Shown: in pieces, positions 15,547 through 29,790 of the stretch
How the letters are laid out: each line of letters begins with the position of its first letter
How positions within the stretch are numbered: position 1 is the first letter of the stretch
Assembly (NCBI RefSeq): GCF_001426245.1
Contig: NZ_LMCM01000005.1
Span: forward strand, 372,001-436,000
Direction: 5' to 3'
DNA: 64,000 bases
DNA from: Phycicoccus sp. Root101
Lineage (GTDB): Bacteria; Actinomycetota; Actinomycetes; Actinomycetales; Dermatophilaceae
Notes under the pieces: generated by a model
Databases searched by the model: none
What the model saw: only the letters and a program-made list of their open reading frames with translations
Told to the model about the DNA's origin: nothing
Position numbers and translations under genes: made by a program

Positions 15547-15940
15547 CCAGGTCCCCTGCTTCCTCGTCGTGCCCTGCCGTGCAATGCACCCCTGCCTGAG
15601 GATGACGCACGTCGGGGCATTGGAAATCATGCGTGTGGATGAGATCCGAACGTCTCCTGAGGGAGCAGATGCCGCTCTCTGACGGGTTCCTGACGACTTC
15701 ATGACAGGTCGATGACGGCGATGTGTCGGGTCCTTGATGCCCTGATGACGACATCCTGAGGCGGATGTGACTCACGGCTGAAACTCCAGTGACCGCAATC
15801 TGTTTCGGTCGTGACGAAGTCGTGAGGGTTCGCCGGTCGTCGGGTGCAAACGGTCAGCGGCGGCGGAGTCTGTCCCTCGGGGGCGGTGTTCCCCACCGGT
15901 GGGGCGACCAGCTCGACCGGCTCGCTCGTTGGAGGTCCTC
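15547..15940. promoter_or_regulatory. Divergent intergenic control region (394 bases)
   Basis: The region separates the minus-strand two-component pair from the plus-strand copper-protein cluster and contains no credible gene. It holds the 11-bp phased array listed separately and a strong ribosome-binding site (TTGGAGGTCCTC) just before the ATG at 15941. I could not place a convincing -10/-35 pair for either direction. Confidence 0.6.
15680..15833. promoter_or_regulatory. Fourteen-unit 11-bp phased TGAC array, probable PhoB/OmpR-type operator
   Basis: Cut into 11-mers from 15680, the units begin TGAC, TGAC, TGAC, TGAC, TGTC, TGAT, TGAC, TGAG, TGAC, TGAA, TGAC, TGTT, TGAC, TGAG. All fourteen begin TG, eleven begin TGA and eight begin TGAC. 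A further TGAG sits in phase at 15658, with one broken unit between. On the minus strand the units read N7-GTCA. The best pair, CTGTCATGAAGTCGTCAG at 15690-15707, resembles the E. coli pho box CTGTCAT-N4-CTGTCAT, which has the same 11-bp period. Confidence 0.75.
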
Positions 15941-18900
15941 ATGCGCACACGCACCCGCACCGTCGTGGTCGCCCTGCTGGCGATGGTGGCCGGCATCCCG
16001 GCAGCCGCACTGCCCGTCGTCGCGCACGCGGCGCCGGCTGCAGTTCCTGCCGCGGCGACGCCCGGAAGCATCACGCTCGCGGTGGCGAGCGCGCGGACCG
16101 TCCGGCCGCAGGCCGGCTTCGTCCACGAGGGTGATGCCGTCACGGCATACAAGTGGATCGTCAACGAGGACGCGACGGGCAATCCCGGCACCGCCACCGC
16201 CCCGCTCACCGACCAGTGCCTGCCCAGCAGGGCGACCGGCGGGTCGACCAACCCGAACTACGCCGACACCTGCCCCTGGCCGAGCACGCGCAGGACGAGC
16301 GGGTTCGCGCCGATCGTGGCCCAGGGCGACGAGAGCGACCTGAACCGCACCAAGGCCCTCGAGGGGCTGCCGCCCGGCAAGTACCTCATCTCGGTGACCG
16401 CCAAGGACTTCAAGATCGACGGTGCGCACTTCACCGTCACGCCGGGCGGGACCCAGCAGGTCTCGGTGGCCATGAACCCGACCCCGCTGCCGCTCAGCAC
16501 CATCAAGATCCAGGTCTTCGAGGACAACGCCCCCGTCGACGGCACCTACGAGGTCGGCGCCGAGCAGGGCCGGGCCGGCTTCACCGCCAACCTCACCGAC
16601 GTCTTCGGTCCCGTCTCCGTCGACTACTACGGCAACGCCCTCTGCACGGTCTACAAGCACCGCACCGCGAACGTCGCCAGCCCGATCCTCTTCGACGCGG
16701 ACGACCGCCCGATCGTCGACACCACCCGCAGCACGGGCAAGTGCGTGAGCGACGCCTCCGGCGTCATCACCATCCCCAACCTCGGACCCAACCGGTATGC
16801 CGCGCTGGTCACCCCGCCGGCGCCGGTCGCCGGACAGACGTACCAGTGGGTGCAGACGACCACGCTCGAGGGCGCGCACGACCACGACATCTGGATCCAG
16901 GAGGGCTCCACCGGTCTGGACACCGAGATCGTCAAGGGCGCCGAGCCCGTGCCGGCGGTGCAGTTCGGCTTCGTCCGGACCAAGGCGCTCCCCTCCGGGA
17001 CCAGGGCACCCAAGGGCGAGGTCAAGGGCAGCGTCGTCGCCGGTCTGCCCTACGTCGGCGGCCAGGGAGGGCAGGTCATCCCCGAGACCGGGTTCGCCGG
17101 GGCGAAGGTGGGCGGCCCGATCAAGAGCCCGTGGGTGGCCCTGTCCGACCTCGGTGCGGGCGACGCCGCGGTCTACGTCGGCCGTGGCGCGACGAACGGT
17201 TCCTTCGACATCAAGAACGTGCCCGACGGCGCCTACCAGCTGACCCTCTGGGACGACGACCAGGACTACATCCTGTGGAGCTTCAACGTCACGGTCGTGG
17301 GCGGCAACGTCGTCGACGTCGGGCAGAAGATGCTCGTGGGCTGGTTCACCCACATCTACGGCTCGGTCTTCATCGACAGCAACGGCGACGGGGTCCGTGA
17401 CCCGGGGGAGCGTGGCGTCCCGGGCTTCGGCCTCACCCTGCGCGAGCGCGACAACTCCCTGATGGACCAGTACACCAACACGGTCTCGACCAACACCGAG
17501 GGCAGCTACGACATCCGCGAGGGCTACCCCCTGAGCAAGTGGCTGGTCCTCGAGGCGTTCAACACGCGGTACCGCACCACCGGCGTGACCTGGCAGGCCG
17601 AGAACGAGACCGAGCCGACCACCCAGCTCGGTGGCCTGGTCGACCTCAGCGTCCTGCCCGTCATCGGCCTCGGTGGCCGCGTCGACTGGGGTGTGGAGCC
17701 GGTCCCCGGCGCGGAGAACGGCGGCATCGCCGGCACGGTCACCTACGACGTCACCCGCAACGAGCTCGACCCCGCGGACGCCGCCACCGAGGGCTACCAG
17801 CCCGGCATCCCCGGCATCGACGTGCACCTCTACGCGAGCAAGCCCTGCACGGCGACCACCGACGAGGACAAGGCCAACACCTGCCGCCAGGGCAAGGAGA
17901 TCGTCCCCCTCAAGGTGACCGGTCCCGACGGCACCCTGGTGGACAACCCCGACCCGCAGCGCGGGGCCCTCGCCCGCGGGCCGGAGCTCGCGGACTCGAC
18001 CACCACGGAGGAGTACGCCCCGCCGCGCGGCTGCACGGCGCGCAAGTACAACGGCGCCGAGCTGACCGACCAGCAGGCCCTGCCGGAGTCGGGTGCCGCC
18101 CCGAACCGGATGTGCGTCGAGGCCCCGATGATGGGTTTCACGGCCGGTCCGAGCGACTCGACCGAGGGCGACGGGGCCCAGACCGTCAACGGCAACTACG
18201 GCTTCTCCGAGTCCAACCTCAACCTCTTCCCGGTGGGTGACGACCGCAACCCGGCGCCCGACCACGACCTTCCGCTGTACGCGAACCTCAAGGACGCCGG
18301 GTACGACCCGCAGCCCCTGACGGCCAGCGACTACATCGTCGGCGTCGACATCCCCGACAACCCGGTCGGCGGCAAGCCGATGTACAAGGTCACGTCCGAG
18401 GAGGACATCAACGTCTTCACCGGCGACACCTACCTGCCGCAGGAGAACTACCCCCCGGCCACCCCGGCCATCGCCGCGGACCCCGGCGACCCGCCGGCAC
18501 CCGAGGTCACCCCTCCCAGCCAGGACCCGTCCCAGACCGGCGGCATCGTGTCCGGCTGCGCCGGACCCCTGCACAAGGTGAACGTGACCGACGAGGACTT
18601 CCTCGCCGGGGGCGGCAGCCCGTTCCAGGGACAGGACCGGCCCTCCTGCCAGGACAAGCTCGTCACGGTCCGGGCCGGCCAGACCACGGCACCGACGTTC
18701 AGCCTCTTCACCGACGTGCCGATCCCGACCCACTTCTGGGGCCTGACGATCAACGACCTGGGGCTGTCCCTCGACAAGCGCAGCGCGAACTACGGTGAGG
18801 CGCAGGGGCTTCCGTACGTGCCCGTCGGCCTCTACGACTACGCGGGACGGCTGGCCTACACGGCCCACACCGACTTCAACGGCATGTACGAGGCGCTCAT

Positions 18901-21325
18901 GCCCTCGACGGGCACCTACAACTGCCCCGTCCCGGCCGGTCCGTGCCCGAACATGTACCGGTTCACCGGCAACGACCCGGGTGTGCCCGGCGCGCTCAAC
19001 ACGGACTACAACCCGCGGTTCAGGACGATCTCCGCCACCTTCCAGGGCTGGCCCGGCCTCTACACGGTCACCGACACGGCGCCGACCCAGGTGGCGGCGA
19101 CGGTGCTGACCCCCGACACGACGGTGGCCAACAACACCGTGTGCGACGTGGACCCCGTGACCCCCCAGCTGTTCGCGGTCGACAAGGTGTACGTCCGGCT
19201 CACCGACAGCAACGCCCAGCGGCTGGTCACCATCCGTGGACGCGGGTTCGGTGCCAGCCAGGGTGCAGGCTCGGTGCGCCTCGGGTCCGCCAACGCGAAC
19301 GTCATCTCGTGGTCCGACGAGGTGATCACGATCCGCGTCGGGGCCAACGCCGCCGCGGGCGCGCAGCAGCTCGACATCACCGCGTCCAACGGCCAGCACG
19401 CGACCAACAGCCTGACCCTGCACGTCCTCGACGCCGTCGGCGCCGCGGGGACGACGCAGAACAACCCCCGCATCGCAGAGGTCGCACCCAGCGGTGCCAA
19501 CACCTACCGCACGATCCAGGCCGCGCTCGAGGCCGCCCGCCCGACGAACGCGACGCCCTACTGGCTCGTCGTCGTCCGACCCGGAGCCGCGACCGCGGTC
19601 AACCCCCGCGGCGAGTACTCCGAGAACCTCATCGTGCACAACCGGGTCCAGGTCCAGGGCTTCGGTCCCGGTGGCTTCGCCGCCAACGGCAGCTGGGTGC
19701 CCGGCACCATCGTCGACGGCTCGAGCTTCAGCGCGGACCAGGACAGCGGTACGGCCTGGATCGCCCTGCTCAACAGCCTGTCGTACGCAGGCGCCCGAGC
19801 GGTTCCTGACGGCGCGGTGTTCACGGTGCTCTCGCCGAGCAGCAACGCGGTGCCCACCGCCTACCCGCTCATGATCGACGGGTTCCAGGTCACCGGGGGC
19901 ATCCAGGTGGACCAGCCCACGAACGTCAACGTCATCACGGGCGGGGTCAGCACCCCGTACGGCGCCACCGGGGCGCTCATCGCCCAGGGCGGTGGCATCT
20001 ACGCCCACAACGCCGTGATGGGCCTGAGGGTGACGAACAACGTCATCGTCGGCAACGGCGGTTCGTACGGCGGCGGCATCCGGATCGGGACGCCCTACGC
20101 GGGCAACAGCCGGAACTACGGACCGGTCATCTCGCACAACCAGATCCGGGACAACGGCGGCACCAATCTCGCCGGCGGCATCGGCCTCTTCGAGGGCAGC
20201 GACGGCTACTCGGTCGACCACAACGCCATCTGCGGCAACCACTCGTCGGAGTACGGCGGTGGGGTCTCGGCCTACGGCTACCAGGCGCACCCCGCGGCGA
20301 CCAGCGCGGGCTACGGCCCGGGCGGATCGGTGGACCACAACACCATCTGGTTCAACAGCTCCTACGACGAGGGCGGCGGCGTGATGATCGCCGGCGAGCT
20401 CCCTGCGGACCCGAACACGCTGTCCGAGGGCACGGGGCCGGTGAAGATCGACTCGAACCAGATCCGGGCCAACCTCGCCAACGACGACGGCGGCGGGATC
20501 AGGCTGCTGCAGACCTCGGGGTCGCACATCTCGCAGTCCTCCCCGGAGACCATCTCCATCACCAACAACACCATCGCCAACAACGTCTCGGCCCACGAGG
20601 GTGGGGGCATCGCCCTCGACGACGCGGCCTTCGTCGAGGTGGTCGACAACACGGTGGTGAAGAACCTGACGACCGCCACGGCCATCACGAGCGACGGGAC
20701 CCCGGCCGCGGCCGGTCTGTCGACGGCGAGCTTCAGCGACCCGCTCCTCAAGCGGCTGCGGAACACGAACCAGTTCCCCAGTGCACCGGGAGTGGCTGCA
20801 GCCGGGTTCGCCAAGCCGACCCTCCTCGACGACCTGTTCTGGGACAACCGGGCCGGGAGCTACGTGGGCGGCTGGGTCCGAGGCATCGGGGGCACGCTCC
20901 CCGACGGCACGACGAACGACACCAACAACTGGGACATGGGCGTCATGGACCTGCCGGGAGCGCAGCTCCACCCGGTCAACTCGGTCCTGCAGACCACCAC
21001 GGGCACCGACGGCGGGGCCAGCACCAGGGTGAGTGCCAACCCGCAGCTGCGGTCGCCGTACGACCTCACGGTGGACGTGCTCGCCGCACGGGCCTACCCC
21101 GCCTTCCGGCAGGCAGCCATCGTCACGACGAAGCTCCCGCTGACGCTGCTGGGTGACTACCACCTGGCGAACGGCTCGGTGGCGATCGGTGCCGGGGTCG
21201 CCAGCACCGCCGGCCCGCTGCCCGGCACCACCGTCGTGGCTCCGGGCACGGACATCGACGGTCGCAACCGGCCGACGAACCCCGGCAGAAGGTACGACGC
21301 CGGTTCGGCGCAGTTCGCCCCCTGA
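15941..21325 (+). CDS. Large exported beta-helix protein with SdrD/Cna-like and IPT/TIG modules
   Basis: 1794 residues. A Sec signal peptide covers roughly residues 1-33 (Arg-rich start, hydrophobic core, AHA-AP). The next thousand residues are beta-rich and contain a Cna/SdrD-like module at about 475-560 (SVFIDSNGDGVRDPGERGVPG) and a predicted-prealbumin-like segment. Residues 1083-1163 form an IPT/TIG domain (VTIRGRGFGASQGAG). About 1183-1600 is a right-handed beta-helix of pectate-lyase type with NN.I..N.S..GGGI repeats. No LPXTG, membrane anchor or S-layer domain is seen at the C-terminus, so it is probably secreted or bound non-covalently. It is the first gene of the copper-protein cluster. 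No enzymatic residues are recognised, and a scaffold or surface role is a guess. Confidence 0.75.
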   Translation: MRTRTRTVVVALLAMVAGIPAAALPVVAHAAPAAVPAAATPGSITLAVASARTVRPQAGFVHEGDAVTAYKWIVNEDATGNPGTATAPLTDQCLPSRATGGSTNPNYADTCPWPSTRRTSGFAPIVAQGDESDLNRTKALEGLPPGKYLISVTAKDFKIDGAHFTVTPGGTQQVSVAMNPTPLPLSTIKIQVFEDNAPVDGTYEVGAEQGRAGFTANLTDVFGPVSVDYYGNALCTVYKHRTANVASPILFDADDRPIVDTTRSTGKCVSDASGVITIPNLGPNRYAALVTPPAPVAGQTYQWVQTTTLEGAHDHDIWIQEGSTGLDTEIVKGAEPVPAVQFGFVRTKALPSGTRAPKGEVKGSVVAGLPYVGGQGGQVIPETGFAGAKVGGPIKSPWVALSDLGAGDAAVYVGRGATNGSFDIKNVPDGAYQLTLWDDDQDYILWSFNVTVVGGNVVDVGQKMLVGWFTHIYGSVFIDSNGDGVRDPGERGVPGFGLTLRERDNSLMDQYTNTVSTNTEGSYDIREGYPLSKWLVLEAFNTRYRTTGVTWQAENETEPTTQLGGLVDLSVLPVIGLGGRVDWGVEPVPGAENGGIAGTVTYDVTRNELDPADAATEGYQPGIPGIDVHLYASKPCTATTDEDKANTCRQGKEIVPLKVTGPDGTLVDNPDPQRGALARGPELADSTTTEEYAPPRGCTARKYNGAELTDQQALPESGAAPNRMCVEAPMMGFTAGPSDSTEGDGAQTVNGNYGFSESNLNLFPVGDDRNPAPDHDLPLYANLKDAGYDPQPLTASDYIVGVDIPDNPVGGKPMYKVTSEEDINVFTGDTYLPQENYPPATPAIAADPGDPPAPEVTPPSQDPSQTGGIVSGCAGPLHKVNVTDEDFLAGGGSPFQGQDRPSCQDKLVTVRAGQTTAPTFSLFTDVPIPTHFWGLTINDLGLSLDKRSANYGEAQGLPYVPVGLYDYAGRLAYTAHTDFNGMYEALMPSTGTYNCPVPAGPCPNMYRFTGNDPGVPGALNTDYNPRFRTISATFQGWPGLYTVTDTAPTQVAATVLTPDTTVANNTVCDVDPVTPQLFAVDKVYVRLTDSNAQRLVTIRGRGFGASQGAGSVRLGSANANVISWSDEVITIRVGANAAAGAQQLDITASNGQHATNSLTLHVLDAVGAAGTTQNNPRIAEVAPSGANTYRTIQAALEAARPTNATPYWLVVVRPGAATAVNPRGEYSENLIVHNRVQVQGFGPGGFAANGSWVPGTIVDGSSFSADQDSGTAWIALLNSLSYAGARAVPDGAVFTVLSPSSNAVPTAYPLMIDGFQVTGGIQVDQPTNVNVITGGVSTPYGATGALIAQGGGIYAHNAVMGLRVTNNVIVGNGGSYGGGIRIGTPYAGNSRNYGPVISHNQIRDNGGTNLAGGIGLFEGSDGYSVDHNAICGNHSSEYGGGVSAYGYQAHPAATSAGYGPGGSVDHNTIWFNSSYDEGGGVMIAGELPADPNTLSEGTGPVKIDSNQIRANLANDDGGGIRLLQTSGSHISQSSPETISITNNTIANNVSAHEGGGIALDDAAFVEVVDNTVVKNLTTATAITSDGTPAAAGLSTASFSDPLLKRLRNTNQFPSAPGVAAAGFAKPTLLDDLFWDNRAGSYVGGWVRGIGGTLPDGTTNDTNNWDMGVMDLPGAQLHPVNSVLQTTTGTDGGASTRVSANPQLRSPYDLTVDVLAARAYPAFRQAAIVTTKLPLTLLGDYHLANGSVAIGAGVASTAGPLPGTTVVAPGTDIDGRNRPTNPGRRYDAGSAQFAP

Positions 21326-21329
21326 GACA

Positions 21330-21369
21330 CCGGTGCGGGCCTCACCCCCTCACTTGGGGCCCGCACCGG
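21330..21369 (+). terminator. Intercistronic hairpin after the beta-helix gene
   Basis: CCGGTGCGGGCC and GGCCCGCACCGG form a perfect 12-bp stem around a 16-base loop, five bases after the stop codon. With no U-tract it could be a partial terminator or an mRNA-stabilising element setting the ratio between the beta-helix protein and the downstream cupredoxin proteins. The DNA that follows is CACC-rich. Confidence 0.6.
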
Positions 21370-21439: not shown

Positions 21440-22717
21440 GTGAGCGACACAACGGCACCGGGCGCGAGCCGCCGGTCCTTCCTGCTCGGCGCAGCCGGCG
21501 TCGGAGCGAGTCTCGTCGTGGGGGCACGCGTCATCGCCCCCAGCCCCGCCCGGGGAGCAGGCCTGCCGGCAGCAGCACCGGCGGCCTCGCCGGCGCGGGT
21601 CACCCGCAAGCTCCACCTCGTCGGCACCGACGGCTGGGCGGCCATGCCGGCCAGCGCCCCGGCCGACCTCCCGTTCTTCCCGGACCCGTTGGCCCCACCC
21701 GGGTTCAACACCTACACGTTCGGGTTCAGGGACGTGACCGGGATGACCCCCACCCAGGTGGCAGCCCAGCGCGGCAAGGCGCAGATCAGTGCCCCGACCC
21801 TGGTGTTCAACGAGGAGGAGGACATCACCATCACGTTGTCCAACCTCGGTCTGGTCCTGCGCCCCGACCTCTTCGACGGGCACACCCTGCACTGGCACGG
21901 GTTCGTCAACGCGATCCCGTTGTTCGACGGCGTGCCCGAGCTGTCGTTGGCGGTCCCGATCGGGCGCGACCTCGACTACTTCTACCGTCCGCACGACGCG
22001 GGCACGTACATGTACCACTGCCACTTCGAGGACGTGGAGCACGTGCAGATGGGCATGACCGGGATGCTGTGGGTCAAGCCCAAGCAGAACTCGCTCCCGA
22101 TCGGCAACGACCCGTTGGGCACGAAGTACGCATACAACGACGGCGACGGGTCGACGAAGTACGACCGCGAGTTCGGCTTCCTGCTCACCGAGCTGTGGTC
22201 GGCCGCCCACTACCGCGACGCCCACATCCAGGTCAGCGACTGGACCGACTACGACCCGTCCTTCTGGTTGATGAACGGCCGCGCCTACCCGGACACCCTC
22301 GCCCCGAACGGTGACCCGAACAGCACGGCAGCGGGTCGGCTCCAGTACCAACCGAACTCGTCACTGGTCACCTGCAACGCGGGGGAGCGCGTCCTGCTCC
22401 GGATGTCGAACCTCGGGTACCAGAGCCACACCATGACCGCCGACAACATCGACATGACGGTGGTCGCCAAGGACGGGAGCCTCCTGCGCGGCAGGGACGG
22501 CACCGCCAACTACCTGTCGACCACGTCGGTCGACGTCGGTCCGGGTGAGAGCCGGGACGTGATCTTCCAGGCGCCCGGGCCCGGCGAGTACCTGCTGTAC
22601 GACCGGCGCTACAGCTACCTCAACAACGGGGGCGGTGGCGGCTACGGCGGCATCATGACGCGGATCCGCGTCGGCGCCCCCGGCACCTACCCCGCCCAGA
22701 CCAGCCCGAACGCGTGA
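21440..22717 (+). CDS. Two-domain multicopper-oxidase-like protein A, with type-1 site and half a trinuclear site
   Basis: 425 residues. The N-terminus has a Tat signal (SRRSFLLGAAGVG), so it is probably exported folded. Cupredoxin domain 1 holds HTLHWHG (His148, His151, His153) and MYHCHFEDVEHVQMGM (His193, Cys194, His195, His201, Met206). This is a complete type-1 ligand set plus four trinuclear-site histidines, as in the last domain of a laccase. HCH and the next His are two residues further apart than in laccases. Domain 2 keeps only His300 in YQSHTM and ends YLLYDRRYSY, with no ligands. It therefore lacks the second histidine set needed for oxygen reduction. GTG start with AGAGGAG upstream; followed closely by paralogue B. 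Confidence 0.85.
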   Translation: MSDTTAPGASRRSFLLGAAGVGASLVVGARVIAPSPARGAGLPAAAPAASPARVTRKLHLVGTDGWAAMPASAPADLPFFPDPLAPPGFNTYTFGFRDVTGMTPTQVAAQRGKAQISAPTLVFNEEEDITITLSNLGLVLRPDLFDGHTLHWHGFVNAIPLFDGVPELSLAVPIGRDLDYFYRPHDAGTYMYHCHFEDVEHVQMGMTGMLWVKPKQNSLPIGNDPLGTKYAYNDGDGSTKYDREFGFLLTELWSAAHYRDAHIQVSDWTDYDPSFWLMNGRAYPDTLAPNGDPNSTAAGRLQYQPNSSLVTCNAGERVLLRMSNLGYQSHTMTADNIDMTVVAKDGSLLRGRDGTANYLSTTSVDVGPGESRDVIFQAPGPGEYLLYDRRYSYLNNGGGGGYGGIMTRIRVGAPGTYPAQTSPNA

Positions 22718-22731
22718 CGAGGGGAACCGTG

Positions 22732-24045
22732 ATGACACCCACCCGCATCCCGAGGCCGCGGCGGTCCGCCCGCTGGGCCGTCGGCGCCACGGCCCTGGCG
22801 GCCGCGGTCGCGACCGCCCTCCTCGGCGGTCCCGCCCCTGCGCAGGCCGCCGCAGACAACGGCCTGCTCTGCGACACCTCGCCCACGAACACGTTCACGC
22901 TCAAGGCCGACGACGACTACATCGCCACCCCCGACGGCAACAGCATCTACATGTGGTCCTACGCGAACGAGGTCCGAGGGCACTTCCAGTTCCCCGGGCC
23001 GACGCTGTGCGTGACCAGCGGCCAGAAGGTCACCGTCGTCCTGCACAACACCCTCCCCGAGGCCACGTCGATCGTGTTCCCGGGCCAGAAGGGGGTGGTG
23101 GCCAACGGGGCCCCCGCCCAGCCGCAGTTCGACGGCGGCGGGTCGCTGACCTCCCTCGTCCAGGCGGCCCCCGCCAGGACCGGCACGGTCACCTACACGT
23201 TCACGGCCGGGTCGCCCGGCACCTACCTCTACAAGAGCGGCACAGACGTCTCCAAGCAGGTCCAGATGGGGATGTACGGCGCGCTCGTGGTCCGGCCCGA
23301 CGGCCACCCGGACCGGGTCAACTCCCGCGCCGACTCGGCCTTCAGCCCCACGCACGAGTACCTGTTCCTCCTGTCCGAGCTCGACCCCGAGGCGCACCTC
23401 GCCGTGGAGCGCGGCGGCCCGATCGACTGGACGACGTTCAAGGCGCGCTACTTCCTCATCAACGGCCGGAGCATGCCGGACACGTTGGCACCCAACAACG
23501 CCTCGTGGCTGCCCAACCAGCCGTATGGCGCGTTCGTGCACATCCGCGCCTACGACGCGACCACCAACCCGCTGCCCGCGACGATCCGCTACCTCAACGC
23601 AGGAACGGTCGACTACCCGTTCCACCCGCACGGCAGTGACGAACGGGTCGTCAACCAGGACGGCCAGCCGGTGCAGGGCGACGGTGGGCAGGACCTGTCG
23701 TACCTCAAGTACGACATCGACGTGCAGCCCGGACAGAGCATCGACGTGCTCATGGACTGGCGGGACGTCGAGCACTGGAACGAGCTGACCAACCCGGTCC
23801 CGACGAACCTGCCGGCCATCACCGACCAGCTGCTGGTCGGGACGGACACCTGGTTCAGCGAGAGCCCCTACCTCGGTGTGAAGAACCCGCTCCCGGCGAA
23901 CATCACCGACAACAACGTCTGCGGCGAGTACTACCACGTGGCCCACAGCCACGCGCTCCAGCAGGCCACCAACTACGGCGCCGCCTTCGGCGGGATGATG
24001 ACGGTCTTCCGCATCGACCCCGTCGCCGGCTGCACGACGAACTGA
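22732..24045 (+). CDS. Two-domain multicopper-oxidase-like protein B, with the complementary half of the trinuclear site
   Basis: 437 residues. A Sec-type signal peptide ends near AQA-AAD at residue 40. Domain 1 aligns with protein A, but every ligand is lost: ATSIVFPG replaces the HWH motif and YLYKSGTDVSKQVQMGM replaces the HCH-His motif. Domain 2 has the reverse state. YPFHPHG (His298, His300) and YYHVAHSHALQQ (His405, His407) provide the two HxH pairs of a laccase N-terminal domain, with a Tyr where the type-1 His would be. The shared segment FLINGRSMPDTLAPN shows common origin with A and C. GAGGGGAACC precedes the ATG at 22732. Alone it cannot form a complete active site. Confidence 0.85.
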   Translation: MTPTRIPRPRRSARWAVGATALAAAVATALLGGPAPAQAAADNGLLCDTSPTNTFTLKADDDYIATPDGNSIYMWSYANEVRGHFQFPGPTLCVTSGQKVTVVLHNTLPEATSIVFPGQKGVVANGAPAQPQFDGGGSLTSLVQAAPARTGTVTYTFTAGSPGTYLYKSGTDVSKQVQMGMYGALVVRPDGHPDRVNSRADSAFSPTHEYLFLLSELDPEAHLAVERGGPIDWTTFKARYFLINGRSMPDTLAPNNASWLPNQPYGAFVHIRAYDATTNPLPATIRYLNAGTVDYPFHPHGSDERVVNQDGQPVQGDGGQDLSYLKYDIDVQPGQSIDVLMDWRDVEHWNELTNPVPTNLPAITDQLLVGTDTWFSESPYLGVKNPLPANITDNNVCGEYYHVAHSHALQQATNYGAAFGGMMTVFRIDPVAGCTTN

Positions 24046-24053
24046 GGTCGGCG

Positions 24054-27000
24054 ATGAGCACCTACGGTCGAAGCACGAACGTCCCGTGGTCCGCACGCGG
24101 CGGGCGCTGGTTGGTCGGCCCCGTCGTGGTCGCCCTGGCCGTGTTCGGGACGGCGGGAGCCGCGGTGGCCCACGCCCCCGCGCACAACCCGGCGCCGAAG
24201 CCGGCCGGCTCGACGGTCCAGCGCAGCGGCGTCTCGCCGACGGCGCCGACCCGTCGCACCGCGCCGGTCGCGCCGACCCTCGACGCCGCCGACAGGGCTG
24301 CCGTCGTCGGGTCGACCACCACCCAGCTGCTGCCCGCCACGGGGCGGGCCGCAGCGGCGGGCACCCTGAGCCCCAGCGGCTGCACGACCACCGGCACCTC
24401 CGTCGCGTGCGACCTGTGGTCGCTGCCCGGCACGACGAGCATCCTGGGCCGCTCCCTCCCGATCTGGGGCTTCTCGCTGACCGGTGACGCGGGCTCGGCC
24501 ACCGCCCCCGGTCCACGGCTCGTCGTCCGCACCGGCGACACGGTGACGGTCACCCTCCACAACGGGATCAGCACCGCGATGTCCCTGGCGTTCCCCGGCA
24601 TCCCCAGCAGCTCGTTCACCTCCGGGTTGTCCGCGTCCGCCCAGGAGGACGGCGTCGCCACCGGCGGTACCGCCAGCTACACGTTCCAGGCGACGCGTCC
24701 CGGCACCTTCATCTACGAGGCCGGCCACACGGCCAACGGTTCGCGCCAGGTGGCCATGGGCCTCGCCGGTGCCCTGGTGGTGCTGCCCGGGGACGGGACG
24801 GCCTACGGCACCCCGGCCACGGCCTACGACGACGAAGCCGTCCTGGTGCTGTCGGAGATCGACCCGGGACTCAACGCCAACCCGCTCGGCTACGACCTGC
24901 GCTCGTTCCACCCGCAGTACCGGCTGATCAACGGCAAGGCCTTCCCGGAGACCGACGCCGTCCCCACCGACCAGGGCCACAAGGTGCTCCTGCGCATGGT
25001 CAACGCCGGATCGCGGACCCACGCCATGGGACTGCTCGGCGGCGACCAGGTGGTCGTCGGCTCCGAAGGGCACCGGGCGCCATACCCGCAGCGGCTCACG
25101 GTCGCCGCGGTGCCACCGGGGGAGACCCTCGACACCATCACGACCATGCCCACCGGCCCTGAGGCCAAGGTGGCCCTGGCCGAGACCGGCGACGTGCTCG
25201 CCAACGCCAACCAGACCGCGGCCGACCCCACCCAGACGGCCACGGGCGGCATGCTCACGTTCCTCGACACGGCTGCGCCCCCACCGGCGACCGACGTCGT
25301 CGGGCCGGTCACGACCCGTGTGGTCGCCAGCCCGAACCCGTCCAACGGACTCACCCCCGTCACGGTGTCCGCTGACCTGAGCGACGTCGCCCAGGGTGGC
25401 TCGAACATCGTCCAGGCGGAGTACGTCATCGACGACGCGGCCACCACCGGACCGGGCTTCGGCGTGCCGCTGACCGGCACGTGGGGCACCTCCACGGTCG
25501 TCGGCGCCACGGGCACCATCGACACCACGGTGCTCGCCTCCCTCGATGCCGGTCGGCACCAGGTCTTCGTCCGCGCCCTCGACGCTGCAGGCAACTGGGG
25601 CGCGGTCGGTTCGGTCGTCCTCAACCTCCCCAAGACCGGCCCGTCGACGACCAACGGCTCGGCCAGGCCCAACCCTGCAGGAGCTGCCCTCGTCAAGGTC
25701 ACGGCCACGGGCGACGACACCCTGGCGGGAGGCACCATCAACGGCGCCGAGTACTTCCTCGACACCGCCGGCGCTGCCGGAACGGGCACGGCGCTGACGA
25801 GGAACCGCACCGCCACCGTGGTCTCGCTGAGCGCGTCGCTGACCGCCACCAGCGTGCAGGCCCTCACCGAGGGCACCCACCACGTCCTGGTCCGCAGCCA
25901 CGACTCGCTCGGCCTCTGGGGTCCACTGCTCGACATCCCGCTCGTGGTGGACCACACCGGTCCCACCGTCGACGGGGCCGCGGTCGGGCCGAACCCGACC
26001 AACGGCGTCCTCAGCGACCCGGCCAACCCCGGTTACCTGGTGGTCTCGGCCACCCTCACCGACCGCGACGCGGCACAGGGCCTGCAGAGCACCATCGTCG
26101 ACGCCGAGGCGTTCCTCGACCCGACGTCGACGAACCCACCCGGTGACAGCGGCCTGCAGATGGTCGCCTCCGACGGGGCGCTCGACTCGGTGACGGAGAC
26201 GGTCTACGGACTCATCCCGATCTCGCAGGTCACCTCCCTGGCCAACGGCCCGCACATCGTGTCGGTCCGCGGCAAGGACGCGGCCGGCAACTGGGGCACG
26301 CTGTTCCCGGCCACCCTCACGGTGGACAGGACCGCACCGCAGCTCAGCGCGCTGACGGCCTCGCCCAACCCCACCAACAGCGCCTCGACGCTCACCCTCA
26401 CCGCGCCGACGAACGAGACGGCCTTCCGGTCCGCCGAGTACTGGCGCGGCACGGACCCGGGCGTCGGTCGCGGGACCACCGTCCCCGTGAGCTACGTCAA
26501 CGGCAAGATCGTGGTCATGGTGCCGCTCGCCGGGGTGCCCGTGGGCCCCCAGAGCTTCGGGATCCGGGTCCAGGACGCCGCGGGCAACTGGAGCAACGCC
26601 CAGTCGACCACGGTCTCGGTGACCAGGGTGATGGCGATCTTCTCGGACAACTTCAACTCGGGCGGCCTCACGGCCTGGTCGGGGAGCACGGGTGGGGTCG
26701 CGGTCACGGCCTCGGCCGGGATCCCCAACGACGGGGTCAACCGTGGTCTCGCGGTGACGCTCGCGGGCCGGACCAACAACCGTCCCGGGTACGTCGTCGA
26801 CTCCACCCCCGCCGGCGAGACGCTCTACGACGCACAGTTCGCGTTCTCCGCAGGCTCGTTGACGACCGGCACCGGCACCAACTCGATCGTCAACCTGTTC
26901 GAGGCCAGGACCGCGGCGGGCGGCCAGGTCTACGCCCTGCAGTACCGCGGGTCCGGCGCCACGGCCCAGGTGCGGGTCGTGCTCGACCGCACCGGTGGTC

Positions 27001-27275
27001 TGGCGGTGGTCAACGGTGGCTGGGTGACCCTCGGCGCCGGTTCGCACGTCCTGAAGACGGCGTGGCGGGCAGGTCCCGCGACAGGGGGCTCGCGCGGCAC
27101 CCTCGTCCTGAGCCGTGACGGCACCGTGGTCACCACGGTGAACGGCCTCACCACAGGGCTCGCCGTCGACGACGCCTGGCTGGGCATCACCGGTGGGGTC
27201 GCGGCAGGCAACAACTCCCCGATGGCGGGGACCGCCGCCTTCGACTCCTTCGCCTCCACCCGGGTCGGGCCATGA
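24054..27275 (+). CDS. Ligand-less cupredoxin protein C with four Ig-like repeats and a LamG-like domain
   Basis: 1073 residues. A signal or anchor helix lies at about 20-40. The cupredoxin pair (about 105-405) is homologous to A and B, shown by GTFIYEAGHTANGSRQVAMGL, SEIDPGLN and RLINGKAFPET. The HWH, HCH and C-terminal HxH motifs are all gone; only an isolated His near 322 (SRTHAMG) remains. Four repeats of about 110 residues follow (about 420-860). Each starts near SPNPSNG and ends VR..DAAGNWG or a variant, a bacterial Ig-like pattern. Residues 862-1073 look like a concanavalin/LamG-type sandwich (FSDNFNSGGLTAWSG start). No catalytic role is expected. It may complete a trimer and attach it to the surface or a glycan. 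ATG start; the stop overlaps the next gene. Confidence 0.8.
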   Translation: MSTYGRSTNVPWSARGGRWLVGPVVVALAVFGTAGAAVAHAPAHNPAPKPAGSTVQRSGVSPTAPTRRTAPVAPTLDAADRAAVVGSTTTQLLPATGRAAAAGTLSPSGCTTTGTSVACDLWSLPGTTSILGRSLPIWGFSLTGDAGSATAPGPRLVVRTGDTVTVTLHNGISTAMSLAFPGIPSSSFTSGLSASAQEDGVATGGTASYTFQATRPGTFIYEAGHTANGSRQVAMGLAGALVVLPGDGTAYGTPATAYDDEAVLVLSEIDPGLNANPLGYDLRSFHPQYRLINGKAFPETDAVPTDQGHKVLLRMVNAGSRTHAMGLLGGDQVVVGSEGHRAPYPQRLTVAAVPPGETLDTITTMPTGPEAKVALAETGDVLANANQTAADPTQTATGGMLTFLDTAAPPPATDVVGPVTTRVVASPNPSNGLTPVTVSADLSDVAQGGSNIVQAEYVIDDAATTGPGFGVPLTGTWGTSTVVGATGTIDTTVLASLDAGRHQVFVRALDAAGNWGAVGSVVLNLPKTGPSTTNGSARPNPAGAALVKVTATGDDTLAGGTINGAEYFLDTAGAAGTGTALTRNRTATVVSLSASLTATSVQALTEGTHHVLVRSHDSLGLWGPLLDIPLVVDHTGPTVDGAAVGPNPTNGVLSDPANPGYLVVSATLTDRDAAQGLQSTIVDAEAFLDPTSTNPPGDSGLQMVASDGALDSVTETVYGLIPISQVTSLANGPHIVSVRGKDAAGNWGTLFPATLTVDRTAPQLSALTASPNPTNSASTLTLTAPTNETAFRSAEYWRGTDPGVGRGTTVPVSYVNGKIVVMVPLAGVPVGPQSFGIRVQDAAGNWSNAQSTTVSVTRVMAIFSDNFNSGGLTAWSGSTGGVAVTASAGIPNDGVNRGLAVTLAGRTNNRPGYVVDSTPAGETLYDAQFAFSAGSLTTGTGTNSIVNLFEARTAAGGQVYALQYRGSGATAQVRVVLDRTGGLAVVNGGWVTLGAGSHVLKTAWRAGPATGGSRGTLVLSRDGTVVTTVNGLTTGLAVDDAWLGITGGVAAGNNSPMAGTAAFDSFASTRVGP

Positions 27276-27784
27276 ACCCGGGAACGACGCGGGCGGCCCG
27301 TTCAGGGGAGTGGGTCGCCCGCCCGGGCCGGGCAGTCGCCCGGCTCGGGCGCAGGGGCTGGGTCGTGGTGGCGGTCGTCCTCGCCCTCGTGGTCGGGGGT
27401 GCGGTGACCTCCCGGATGCTGTGGCACGACCCCGCACAGGCCGGTATGCCGCTCAACGTGGACCTCGAGCAGTCGGCCGGGATCCGCTTCACCCGGGTCG
27501 CCGTCGTCGCCGACGGCGGCCTCCTCGAGGCGAGCTACGTCGTCCTCGACCCGGAGAAGGCGACGCGGTTCCAGTCCGACCGCGAGCACCCGCCGGCGAT
27601 CGAGAGCGAGGAACGTGCCGAGAGCACCAAGCGGGTCGCGCTGATGAAGCAGGGCCACCAGATGCGCGCCGGGCAGTCCTACTACCTCGTGTACAACAAC
27701 AGCGGTGGCGTGGTCCGCTCCGGCGAGACGGCCCGGATCGTCTACAACGGGTTCGTCCTCGAGCACGTGCCGGTGATCGGATGA
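27272..27784 (+). CDS. Single-pass membrane protein of unknown function in the copper cluster
   Basis: 170 residues: a basic cytoplasmic N-terminus, one membrane helix at about 29-47 (GWVVVAVVLALVVGGAV), and an external domain of about 120 residues. The external part has scattered Met and His (RMLWHD, ALMKQGHQMRAG, VLEHV) but no motif I recognise. It shares ATGA with the stop of protein C and with the start of the CopC-CopD gene, so it is tightly coupled within the cluster. A copper-handling or assembly role is suggested only by position. Confidence 0.6.
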   Translation: MNPGTTRAARSGEWVARPGRAVARLGRRGWVVVAVVLALVVGGAVTSRMLWHDPAQAGMPLNVDLEQSAGIRFTRVAVVADGGLLEASYVVLDPEKATRFQSDREHPPAIESEERAESTKRVALMKQGHQMRAGQSYYLVYNNSGGVVRSGETARIVYNGFVLEHVPVIG

Positions 27785-29790
27785 TCCCGCTGCTGCGCCG
27801 CGCAGTCGTCCCGGCTGTGGTCGTCGCGTTGGCGATGGCGGTGTTCGCCGGGGCCGGACCGGCGTCCGCCCACGCGTTCCTGGTCTCGAGCAACCCGGCC
27901 GACGGACAGGTCCTCGACTCCTCGCCGACGGTCCTGCGGATGCGGCTGAGCGAGTCGGTGCTGCTCGGCTCCACGTCGGTGACCGTGGTCGGCGGGTCGG
28001 TCCGCCACGAGCTGACCGGCCTGCGCCTCGTGGAGACCGCCGACGGCGGCGCGGCGGCGAAGGACGGGGCCGACCCGCTCACGCGCCCTCGGGCGGCTGC
28101 CTCCTCGGACGAGGCCCCGGTCGAGCTGGTCGCCCCGTTGCCGGCACTCGGGCGCGGCTCCTACCGCGTCTCCCTGGAGACCGTCTCGGCCGACGACCTG
28201 CACCGCACCGCGGCCGTCCTGGTGTTCGGCATCCAGCAGCAGGTCTCGGCCGCGGGTCGGCAGGAGGCCGCCCCACGCGTCGACGAGGCCCTGCTGCGCT
28301 GGGTCGTGCTCGCCGGCCTGTGCCTCGGCCTCGGGGCCGCACTCGTGCGCCGGCTCGCGACGCCGGCGCGGCACGGCAGCGTGGTCCGGGTCGCCCGCGC
28401 CTGCGACCAGGTCGCAGCCGCGGCGTGCGCGGTGGCCGCCCTGACCGCCGTCGGGCTGCTCGCCGTGCAGCTGTCAGGGGAGGGGTCTGCCGGCCTCGAC
28501 ACCCTGTTTGGTGCCTACGGTGCCCGCTGGCTGACCCGGGAGACCGGCCTCCTGCTCATCGGCGCCGCCGCGGTCCTGCGCTGGCGGCGGCTCGCACCCA
28601 GAACGGCCCGCCTGGCCTTGGCCTCCGGGGCGGTGCTGGCGACGGCGGGGGAGGCCCTGCTCGGCCACGCGGGTGCGGGGGTGACCACCTCGTGGGTCAG
28701 GGTCGCCGCCACCGCGCTCCACGTCGGGGCAGCCGCGACGTGGGCGGGTGCCGCGGTCCTCCTCGCGGGGTGCGCGCTGGTCCTGCGTCGCGAGGGGGTG
28801 CCCGGTCGGGCGCTCGCGCGGGCCCTGCTCCGACGCTTCGGTGTGCCGGCCGCCGCCTGCGTCTCGGTCATGGTCGTCACCGGGGTGGTCCTGGCCAGCA
28901 GCGTGGTCGCCTCCGTCGATGCCCTGCTGGTCACCGACTACGGGCGGGTGCTGCTCCTCAAGGTGGCGGCCGCCGCGGTCGCCCTGGCGCTCGGGCTGGC
29001 CCACACCCGCAGCCTGCACCCGAGGCTGCTGGTCGGCCGTCGTCGCGCGGCCACCGCGGCCGTCACTCCGGGCCGCTCCCTGGTCGTCGAGGGCGTCGCC
29101 GCGGGGGCAGCCCTCGCGCTGGCGGCGCTGCTCGCGGCCGGACAGCCCGCGGTCGGACCCGCACTCGTCGCCGACCCGGCCGCGCCCTTCGACCCCACGG
29201 TGTCCGCGTTCGCCGACGACCTGCAGGAACAGCTCTCGATCCAGCCGAACCGTCCGGGACCCAACGTCGCCGTCATCACGGTCTCCAGCACCCGTCGGCC
29301 GGACCCTGCACCGGTGACCGGGGTGACGGTGGCGGTGTACTCCAAGAACGGTGGCCTGCGGTCCGCCGGCACCGGTGAACGCTCGGCCCTCGGGCAGTGG
29401 AGCGTGCCGGTGACCATGACGGAGGCCGGCGCCGCCGACGCCGTCGTCACCGTGACCCGCGTCGGCGTGCCGCCCACCGAGCTCGCGGTGGACTGGGTGG
29501 TCGCCCAAGCCGTCCCACCGCGTGCGGTGCTCTCGCTGGCCCCGCTCCGCGGATGGCTGCTCGCTGTCGCCTGCGTGCTCGCTGCGCTCCTCGCCTCTGC
29601 GTGGTCCGTCGCAGGACTGCGCCGCTGGCGCGGTCGCTCTCGGCGGCGCACGGGCCCTGCGGTGGAGTGGTCCGAGGTGCCCGCTGGAGCCCGCGCCACG
29701 CGCACGTGGGCTGCGGCGACGGCGCTCGCGCCCGACCAGGACCCGGGGGCCCAGCCCGACCGAAGTGGACTCCCGGTACCCAGCCGGTAG
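27781..29790 (+). CDS. CopC-CopD fusion: copper-binding domain plus copper-import membrane domain
   Basis: 669 residues. Signal peptidase cleavage after ASA would leave His at the mature N-terminus (HAFLVSSNPADGQVL), which is the first Cu(II) ligand of CopC proteins. The conserved Asp and His follow in SADDLHRT. The CopC domain ends near residue 155. About eight helices of a CopD domain occupy about 170-450, with an HAGAGVTTSWVR segment and ALHVGAAATWAGA. A further external beta domain and a final helix (about 580-605) complete the protein. It should capture periplasmic-side copper and pass it through the membrane. As last gene of the cluster it strongly supports copper loading of the neighbouring cupredoxin proteins. 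Confidence 0.85.
   Translation: MIPLLRRAVVPAVVVALAMAVFAGAGPASAHAFLVSSNPADGQVLDSSPTVLRMRLSESVLLGSTSVTVVGGSVRHELTGLRLVETADGGAAAKDGADPLTRPRAAASSDEAPVELVAPLPALGRGSYRVSLETVSADDLHRTAAVLVFGIQQQVSAAGRQEAAPRVDEALLRWVVLAGLCLGLGAALVRRLATPARHGSVVRVARACDQVAAAACAVAALTAVGLLAVQLSGEGSAGLDTLFGAYGARWLTRETGLLLIGAAAVLRWRRLAPRTARLALASGAVLATAGEALLGHAGAGVTTSWVRVAATALHVGAAATWAGAAVLLAGCALVLRREGVPGRALARALLRRFGVPAAACVSVMVVTGVVLASSVVASVDALLVTDYGRVLLLKVAAAAVALALGLAHTRSLHPRLLVGRRRAATAAVTPGRSLVVEGVAAGAALALAALLAAGQPAVGPALVADPAAPFDPTVSAFADDLQEQLSIQPNRPGPNVAVITVSSTRRPDPAPVTGVTVAVYSKNGGLRSAGTGERSALGQWSVPVTMTEAGAADAVVTVTRVGVPPTELAVDWVVAQAVPPRAVLSLAPLRGWLLAVACVLAALLASAWSVAGLRRWRGRSRRRTGPAVEWSEVPAGARATRTWAAATALAPDQDPGAQPDRSGLPVPSR

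Follow-up and report, generated by a model that had tools for sequence, protein, structure and literature searches.

The locus

The stretch analysed here, called the window, comprises 64,000 nucleotides of Phycicoccus sp. Root101 (contig NZ_LMCM01000005.1, positions 372,001 to 436,000 of the forward strand; genome size 4.38 Mb). It carries three adjacent genes, A, B and C, whose products all contain multicopper oxidase domains (Pfam). An earlier reading of the letters alone, hereafter the sequence-only reading, had proposed that the three encode one oxidase whose active site is divided between separate proteins. The genes and their copper ligands are listed below by position in the window; residue numbers of A and B are counted from the GTG starts.

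21440..22717, plus strand: subunit A; GTG start, 425 amino acids (aa); twin-arginine translocation (Tat)-like signal and two cupredoxin domains
21881..21898, plus strand: A residues 148-153, HTLHWH; type-1 His148, trinuclear His151 and His153
22016..22057, plus strand: A residues 193-206, HCHFEDVEHVQMGM; trinuclear His193 and His195, type-1 Cys194, His201 and Met204/206
22714..24045, plus strand: subunit B; GTG start, 443 aa; signal peptide and two cupredoxin domains
23623..23631, plus strand: B His304-Pro-His306; trinuclear, in 90/90 rows
23944..23952, plus strand: B His411-Ser-His413; trinuclear, in 90/90 rows
24054..27275, plus strand: subunit C; 1073 aa; ligand-free two-domain cupredoxin unit (about the first 410 aa) and immunoglobulin (Ig)-like tail

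The description of the products as three paralogous two-domain proteins holds for A and B. C is not a simple two-domain protein, since the paralogous unit covers only its first ∼410 residues and is followed by the tail, in which Pfam recognizes Big_13 Ig-like repeats. The sequence-only reading had also picked out the right His residues of B, but numbered them 298, 300, 405 and 407 from an internal ATG six codons past the GTG start; from the GTG they are 304, 306, 411 and 413.

Partition of the copper ligands

The ligands of A, namely those of the type-1 site and four of the eight trinuclear His, lie entirely in domain 1. The remaining four are all found in domain 2 of B, whose domain 1 is stripped of ligands, and C is without any copper ligand. 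Conservation was scored in 88 rows of A (97 loci and the window) and 90 rows of B (98 loci and the window), near-identical rows having been removed. In A, H148, H151, H153, C194, H195 and M204 are each kept in 87 of the 88 rows, H193 in 86, and H201 and M206 in all. The misses are a gapped row at a contig end (L117), a Leu for H193 in a metagenome-assembled genome (L059), and a Leu for M204 in L093. All four trinuclear His of B are kept in 90/90 rows.

A second count used 58 loci (56 deduplicated named loci, the window and one from Cupriavidus) and the ligand columns of a complete single-chain relative, L136. The whole domain-1 ligand set is present in 58/58 A, as the sequence-only reading had it for the single protein, and neither His of the domain-2 H-x-H pair occurs in any A (0/58), in line with its stripped second domain. 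Type-1 ligands, Cys included, are found in 0/58 B, in agreement with the claim of an emptied domain 1, and the ligand-free state of C was seen in every case (0/58 with any ligand). There are two stray His residues: the A of L081 has one at a domain-2 column, and the B of L096 has one at a domain-1 column. Because of an insertion, the last His pair of B is out of register in this alignment; H411/H413 were therefore counted separately, in the 90 rows given above. The complementary pattern is invariant across Actinomycetota, Chloroflexota, Myxococcota and Pseudomonadota, and is not due to chance.

Among the matches listed, the best PDB matches of A were 3g5w and 2zwn, with the 3g5w match spanning both domains, and the profile of B matches 2zwn. 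We take both to be type C two-domain oxidases, presumably trimers of identical chains with every ligand in one gene product. The HxH/HCH spacing of their domain 1 is the same as in A, with seven residues from the Cys to the second type-1 His. Two-domain oxidases are classified into types A, B and C and form trimers in which the trinuclear coppers are coordinated by residues of two protomers (PMC13151041). A, B and C resemble type C in the two-cupredoxin unit (Pfam), and in type C the trinuclear cluster is expected where one subunit's domain 1 meets domain 2 of a second subunit. The type-1 ligands of A lie in domain 1, as in type C; B and C lack them (0/58 with the Cys). Unlike in type C, where a single chain carries all eight trinuclear His, four are found in A, four in B and none in C, so that the ligands are spread over two genes and accompanied by a third, ligand-free paralogue.

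Two further sets of conserved residues were observed. Four Cys of B are nearly invariant (C53 90/90, C99 88/90, C403 88/90 and C440 85/90 rows) and perhaps form two disulfides; C99 and C403 are replaced in both of the plasmid loci described below. A His in the inter-domain linker is kept in A (His257, window 22208-22210; 86/88 rows) and in B (His228, window 23395-23397; 79/90 rows), and was also seen by eye in complete single-chain relatives.

Distribution and linkage of the genes

A family-level search that included the window's own genome found A in 16 of 149 genomes, and 16 regions from the 15 others show the order E-A-B-C, as far as the contigs reach, where E encodes a giant secreted protein. 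Within the genus, B occurs in one of 11 genomes, that of the window, and A was not found in the eight of the ten other genomes that were searched for it. Matches to B also include ten plasmid records of Paraburkholderia, Cupriavidus and Rhizobium, two of which were read.

Two partly overlapping sets of loci were used to assess linkage. A contig scan with an alignment of B gave 367 relatives, and the best 80 of these, from the same four phyla as above, form the B-found set. A precedes B in 79 of the 80, the exception being at a contig end; C follows B in 77, with three misses at contig ends; and E precedes A in 75. The nine misses of A, C or E fall in eight loci and all lie near contig ends. 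The A-found set has 32 places: the 16 family regions, two in 398 Pseudomonadota genomes, 11 in eight of 301 Chloroflexota genomes, and three in two further genomes of 396 Actinomycetota. A further three Chloroflexota genomes matched the A search through other kinds of oxidase. B directly follows A in 32/32 places, and C is present in all 29 places read for more than 1.5 kb around A, the other three having been read for 1.5 kb per side. On these counts the linkage of A and B is complete.

The sequence-only reading had held that an A or B standing alone and active would count against it; neither was found apart from the other in the 32 A-found places and 80 B-found loci. The two are separate open frames wherever both occur (79/79 B-found loci and 32/32 A-found places), and no single-chain A-B fusion was seen inside the A/B/C family among the loci read.

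Protein E and export signals

The sequence-only reading did not include E, the linkage of which to A and B is about as tight as that of C. It lies upstream of A wherever the contig is long enough, save in the two plasmid loci read, from Cupriavidus metallidurans CH34 and a Paraburkholderia. There A and B are followed by a single open frame that begins with C and continues as E; it has at least 2455 or 2652 residues, being cut by the end of the locus. In L105 (Oxalobacteraceae), C and E are separate.

15899..21325, plus strand: protein E of the window; giant secreted protein with SdrD B-like, TIG and beta-helix parts
L026 9530-16897 and L027 9520-17478: C-E fused frames; the C unit is the N-terminus and the frame continues as E

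At L093 (11231-18985) the C unit lies within a 2585-aa open frame rich in DUF11 repeats. E and the tails of C suggest that the assembly is bound to the cell surface.

A Tat-like motif, defined as a twin-arginine followed by a hydrophobic stretch, was scored only where the frame around the expected signal was 45 residues or longer. It is present in 45/55 A, 3/56 B, 2/53 C and 0/15 E. Judged by these motifs, A would be exported folded and B unfolded, in which case a shared cluster could form only outside the membrane.

Complete and separately divided relatives

Complete two-domain oxidases, with all ligands in one chain and the linker motif in common with A and B, were found in the Chloroflexota sample (L136, L137 and L187). 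A further frame of this complete type (L186 5848-6918) has a second half that departs from the domain-2 sequence and is possibly a frameshift or pseudogene.

Two other kinds of relative show a similar division of ligands. In L139 (575-3019, minus strand), one chain contains two tandem units followed by a plastocyanin-like domain; unit 1 has kept domain 1 and lost domain 2, and unit 2 shows the reverse. This tandem is known from one genome and was not found again in 15 other genomes of its order or in 300 others sampled of its phylum. The same genome contains additional pieces of a similar gene, a number of which lie where contig C429 ends. The second kind is a two-gene pair in two genomes (L184 6759-9041 and L185 6905-9220, both minus strand), with the B-like gene before the A-like one and no further gene of this kind within the 16 kb read.

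In the trees, A, B and C each form one side of a branch, with support of 100/99, 99/90 and 100/99, and the genes of the window have actinobacterial sequences as their nearest relatives. Placements were compared by the approximately unbiased (AU) test with the ligand columns removed. Grouping the tandem units with A and B was rejected (p-AU 0.00067 and 1.8e-5), as was grouping the pair with A and B (0.00145 and 5.2e-7); joining pair and tandem was rejected less strongly (0.0036 and 0.021), all these p-values assuming groups named before the tree was seen, whereas ours were named afterwards, and sharing the weakness of the model on long branches. The trees place L139, the one fusion found, outside A and B. 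The simplest reading of the trees is that the same division of labour had three separate origins, two of them firmer than the third.

In each of these lineages the losses leave domain 1 complete in one unit and domain 2 complete only in a different one, and the two halves would have to meet if selection maintains the proteins as an oxidase. The central claim of the sequence-only reading, that domain 1 of A and domain 2 of B make up one divided active site, is strongly supported by comparison: neither half varies, A and B did not occur apart in the loci read, there are complete relatives in a single chain, and a similar complementary loss is seen in other lineages. We give the claim a probability of roughly three in four. 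It appears that neither A nor B should work without the other.

How many chains take part is a separate question. If a ring exists, type C geometry, as we read it, gives the order A-C-B, and an exact A-C-B heterotrimer is plausible. A tentative alternative, which we hold to be rather unlikely, has the divided site in an assembly of A and B without C in the ring (A:B dimers, A2B or AB2 rings, or A3B3), with C only anchoring it to E. The tandem has two units plus the plastocyanin-like domain, and the pair has two genes; in the stretches read, both have A-like and B-like units and no others, and the copper site therefore does not demonstrably require a third unit without ligands. C has no ligands, and is fused to E in both plasmid loci read, as an anchor might be. 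Against this, C accompanies the other two in nearly every locus of both sets (29/29 A-found, 77/80 B-found) and is a paralogue with the same two-domain fold. Moreover, the contig-end fragments in the genome of L139 may include a third unit.

Structure models and covariation

AlphaFold2 was run on natural neighbours as one chain, with the intervening stop read as Gly. The input alignments held only fully in-frame rows, 15 for A-B (from L054) and 14 for A-B-C (from L089). A deeper alignment (A3) was dropped as fold input because MAFFT laid C rows over B, and two others (A4 and A5) because their B-only rows were judged, from identity lists, to be laid over A. The low-confidence parts include the loops that carry the ligands in domain 1 of A and domain 2 of B, whereas domain 1 of B and C were predicted better. 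Foldseek, with 50 matches listed per model, placed ceruloplasmin, factors V and VIII and Mnx (9bxa) near the top, in long alignments with a root-mean-square deviation of about 22-32 Angstrom. Covariation was calculated from 95 rows. Of the domain-pair blocks, that of A domain 1 with B domain 2 was the highest, and its top pairs (A165, 167 and 168 with B412, 420, 425, 426 and 431) lie near the trinuclear His in sequence.

Several results weigh against the divided site or its repeated origin. The A-B read-through model reached a mean predicted local distance difference test (pLDDT) score of 62.7 and a predicted template modelling (pTM) score of 0.49, and the A-B-C model 65.4 and 0.42. Template modelling (TM) scores normalised to the query were 0.16-0.27 among the Foldseek matches listed, so that docking is not supported by the models. 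The covarying states track a single clade split of the family. Within the two clades (56 and 38 rows, leaving out one gapped row) the block of A domain 1 with B domain 2 ranks third and seventh of 15, and in the second clade the alternative ring order scores higher; as the signal follows the clade split, covariation is not counted as evidence. Stripping is incomplete in the two-gene pair: its A-like member has domain 1 intact and lacks one domain-2 His pair while retaining the other, and its B-like member, with domain 2 complete and the type-1 Cys and domain-1 HxH lost, retains two other His in domain 1. In the joint tree the tandem has a reduced support of 90/82 and the pair is surrounded by weak branches, and the separate origins rest on one genome for the tandem and two for the pair. 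Finally, A lacks a Tat-like motif in both plasmid loci.

On docking itself, the outcome of the modelling neither supports nor refutes contact between the two halves. The lack of confident docking would suit a scheme without a shared cluster, in which A carries electrons as a blue copper protein and B serves as a scaffold that binds copper, each in its own homotrimer, with no O2-reducing oxidase. We regard this as improbable, as it fails to explain the four invariant His of A, the complementary four of B and the similar complementary loss in separate lineages, and a homotrimer of A or of B would hold only half-sites.

Comparison with six-domain and multi-subunit oxidases

The string of domains resembles that of six-domain oxidases, although their arrangement was not predicted by the models. 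A ring of A, B and C would, like ceruloplasmin, have six cupredoxin domains and one trinuclear cluster, but built from three polypeptides instead of one, and the type-1 site here lies in the domain-1 half, unlike in ceruloplasmin. Factors V and VIII are six-domain relatives without oxidase function, which serve other functions and are made as single precursor chains. They gave strong local Foldseek matches; in the present system all ligands persist, over two chains. To our knowledge, the four coppers of known multicopper oxidases are held in one chain or between identical chains, the latter in two-domain oxidases (PMC13151041). In the open-licence literature, which excludes subscription papers and bioRxiv, we found no description of an oxidase with a trinuclear site divided between different gene products.

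The Mnx complex of Bacillus (MnxE3F3G) is a multi-subunit oxidase the activity of which needs more than one gene (PMC5622069). Only mnxG encodes a multicopper oxidase, MnxE and MnxF being proteins of ∼12 kDa without known homologues, and MnxG was then called the only characterised multicopper oxidase requiring accessory proteins (PMC5622069). The multi-subunit nature is shared with A, B and C, in which an MnxG-like chain with all ligands is not found. The Mnx chain was not among the sequence matches listed for A and B (three of the four lists give the best 60 of 64, 66 and 143), and relatives of MnxE and MnxF were not searched for. We consider it highly improbable that A, B and C correspond to a six-domain manganese oxidase of the MnxG type cut into separate chains: the six-cupredoxin chain does match ceruloplasmin, factors V/VIII and Mnx locally, and Mnx itself has several subunits, but A, B and C have complete two-domain relatives (six-domain oxidases not being part of the trees), the global fold match is poor (TM-score to the query 0.26 and 0.19), and the division in Mnx lies between one oxidase gene and its small partners.

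Neighbouring genes

The cluster continues downstream of C, in the order E-A-B-C-F-G and on the plus strand throughout.

27272..27784, plus strand: protein F; small, with a membrane anchor (by eye); conserved downstream of C
27781..29790, plus strand: protein G; CopC-CopD fusion (Pfam), probably for copper uptake

Genes A and B, C and F, and F and G overlap by four bases each, and eight bases separate B from C; with this spacing, A to G probably form one transcript. A strong hairpin (21330-21369; -32.9 kcal/mol, z -4.7, without a T run) lies between the stop of E and A, and may set different amounts of E and of A-B-C.

Clustering of neighbours at the 58 loci gave as the commonest F-like proteins (27 loci), subtilases (25), CopC-CopD-like proteins (22; named by likeness to protein G of the window) and response regulators (14). 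Pfam was used to check one member each of the subtilases (L090) and the response regulators (L082). SCO1/SenC-like proteins occur at three loci, and the one in L105 was confirmed (Pfam). Genes for copper supply nearby fit with a secreted copper enzyme. The subtilase-like neighbour (L090 15148-17148 and 24 other loci) is a possible processing enzyme of the subunits.

Proposed origin and significance

What the analysis shows is how the ligands are distributed and conserved, how the genes are linked and related, and which signal motifs they carry; from this we infer how the subunits may dock, their stoichiometry, copper content and activity, how they are exported, and what C and E do. The ancestor would have been a homotrimeric type C two-domain oxidase, the gene of which was multiplied, followed by complementary ligand loss, to give an extracellular enzyme. 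A would have kept one complete domain 1, with a type-1 copper that oxidises the substrate and four of the trinuclear His, and B one complete domain 2, with the other four. A single O2-reducing trinuclear cluster would then form only where domain 1 of A meets domain 2 of B. C, the ligand-free paralogue, would most likely close the three-fold ring (A-C-B) and join the oxidase to E. The Tat-like motif, carried mostly by A and mostly missing from B and C, points to assembly of the cluster outside the membrane, where the neighbouring CopC-CopD protein may supply copper. As to the substrate, a metal such as Mn(II), or phenols, would be a guess; among the sequence matches listed for A and B, no link to manganese oxidases was found.

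Taken as a whole, A, B and C may represent a new class of hetero-oligomeric multicopper oxidase, in which the cluster comes from two separately encoded and differently exported proteins, a ligand-free paralogue ties it to a giant surface protein, and the division arose three times or more, each time from two-domain oxidases with a complete site in one chain. We lean slightly towards this fuller account. Annotation that scores A or B singly may mis-call both. If the account is true, the family would be a natural case of a symmetric homo-oligomeric enzyme turning asymmetric by complementary degeneration, in which every form is still extant, from the complete oxidase through the half-finished pair and the tandem in one chain to the finished set of three genes, and the origin of six-domain oxidases such as ceruloplasmin would become more directly testable.

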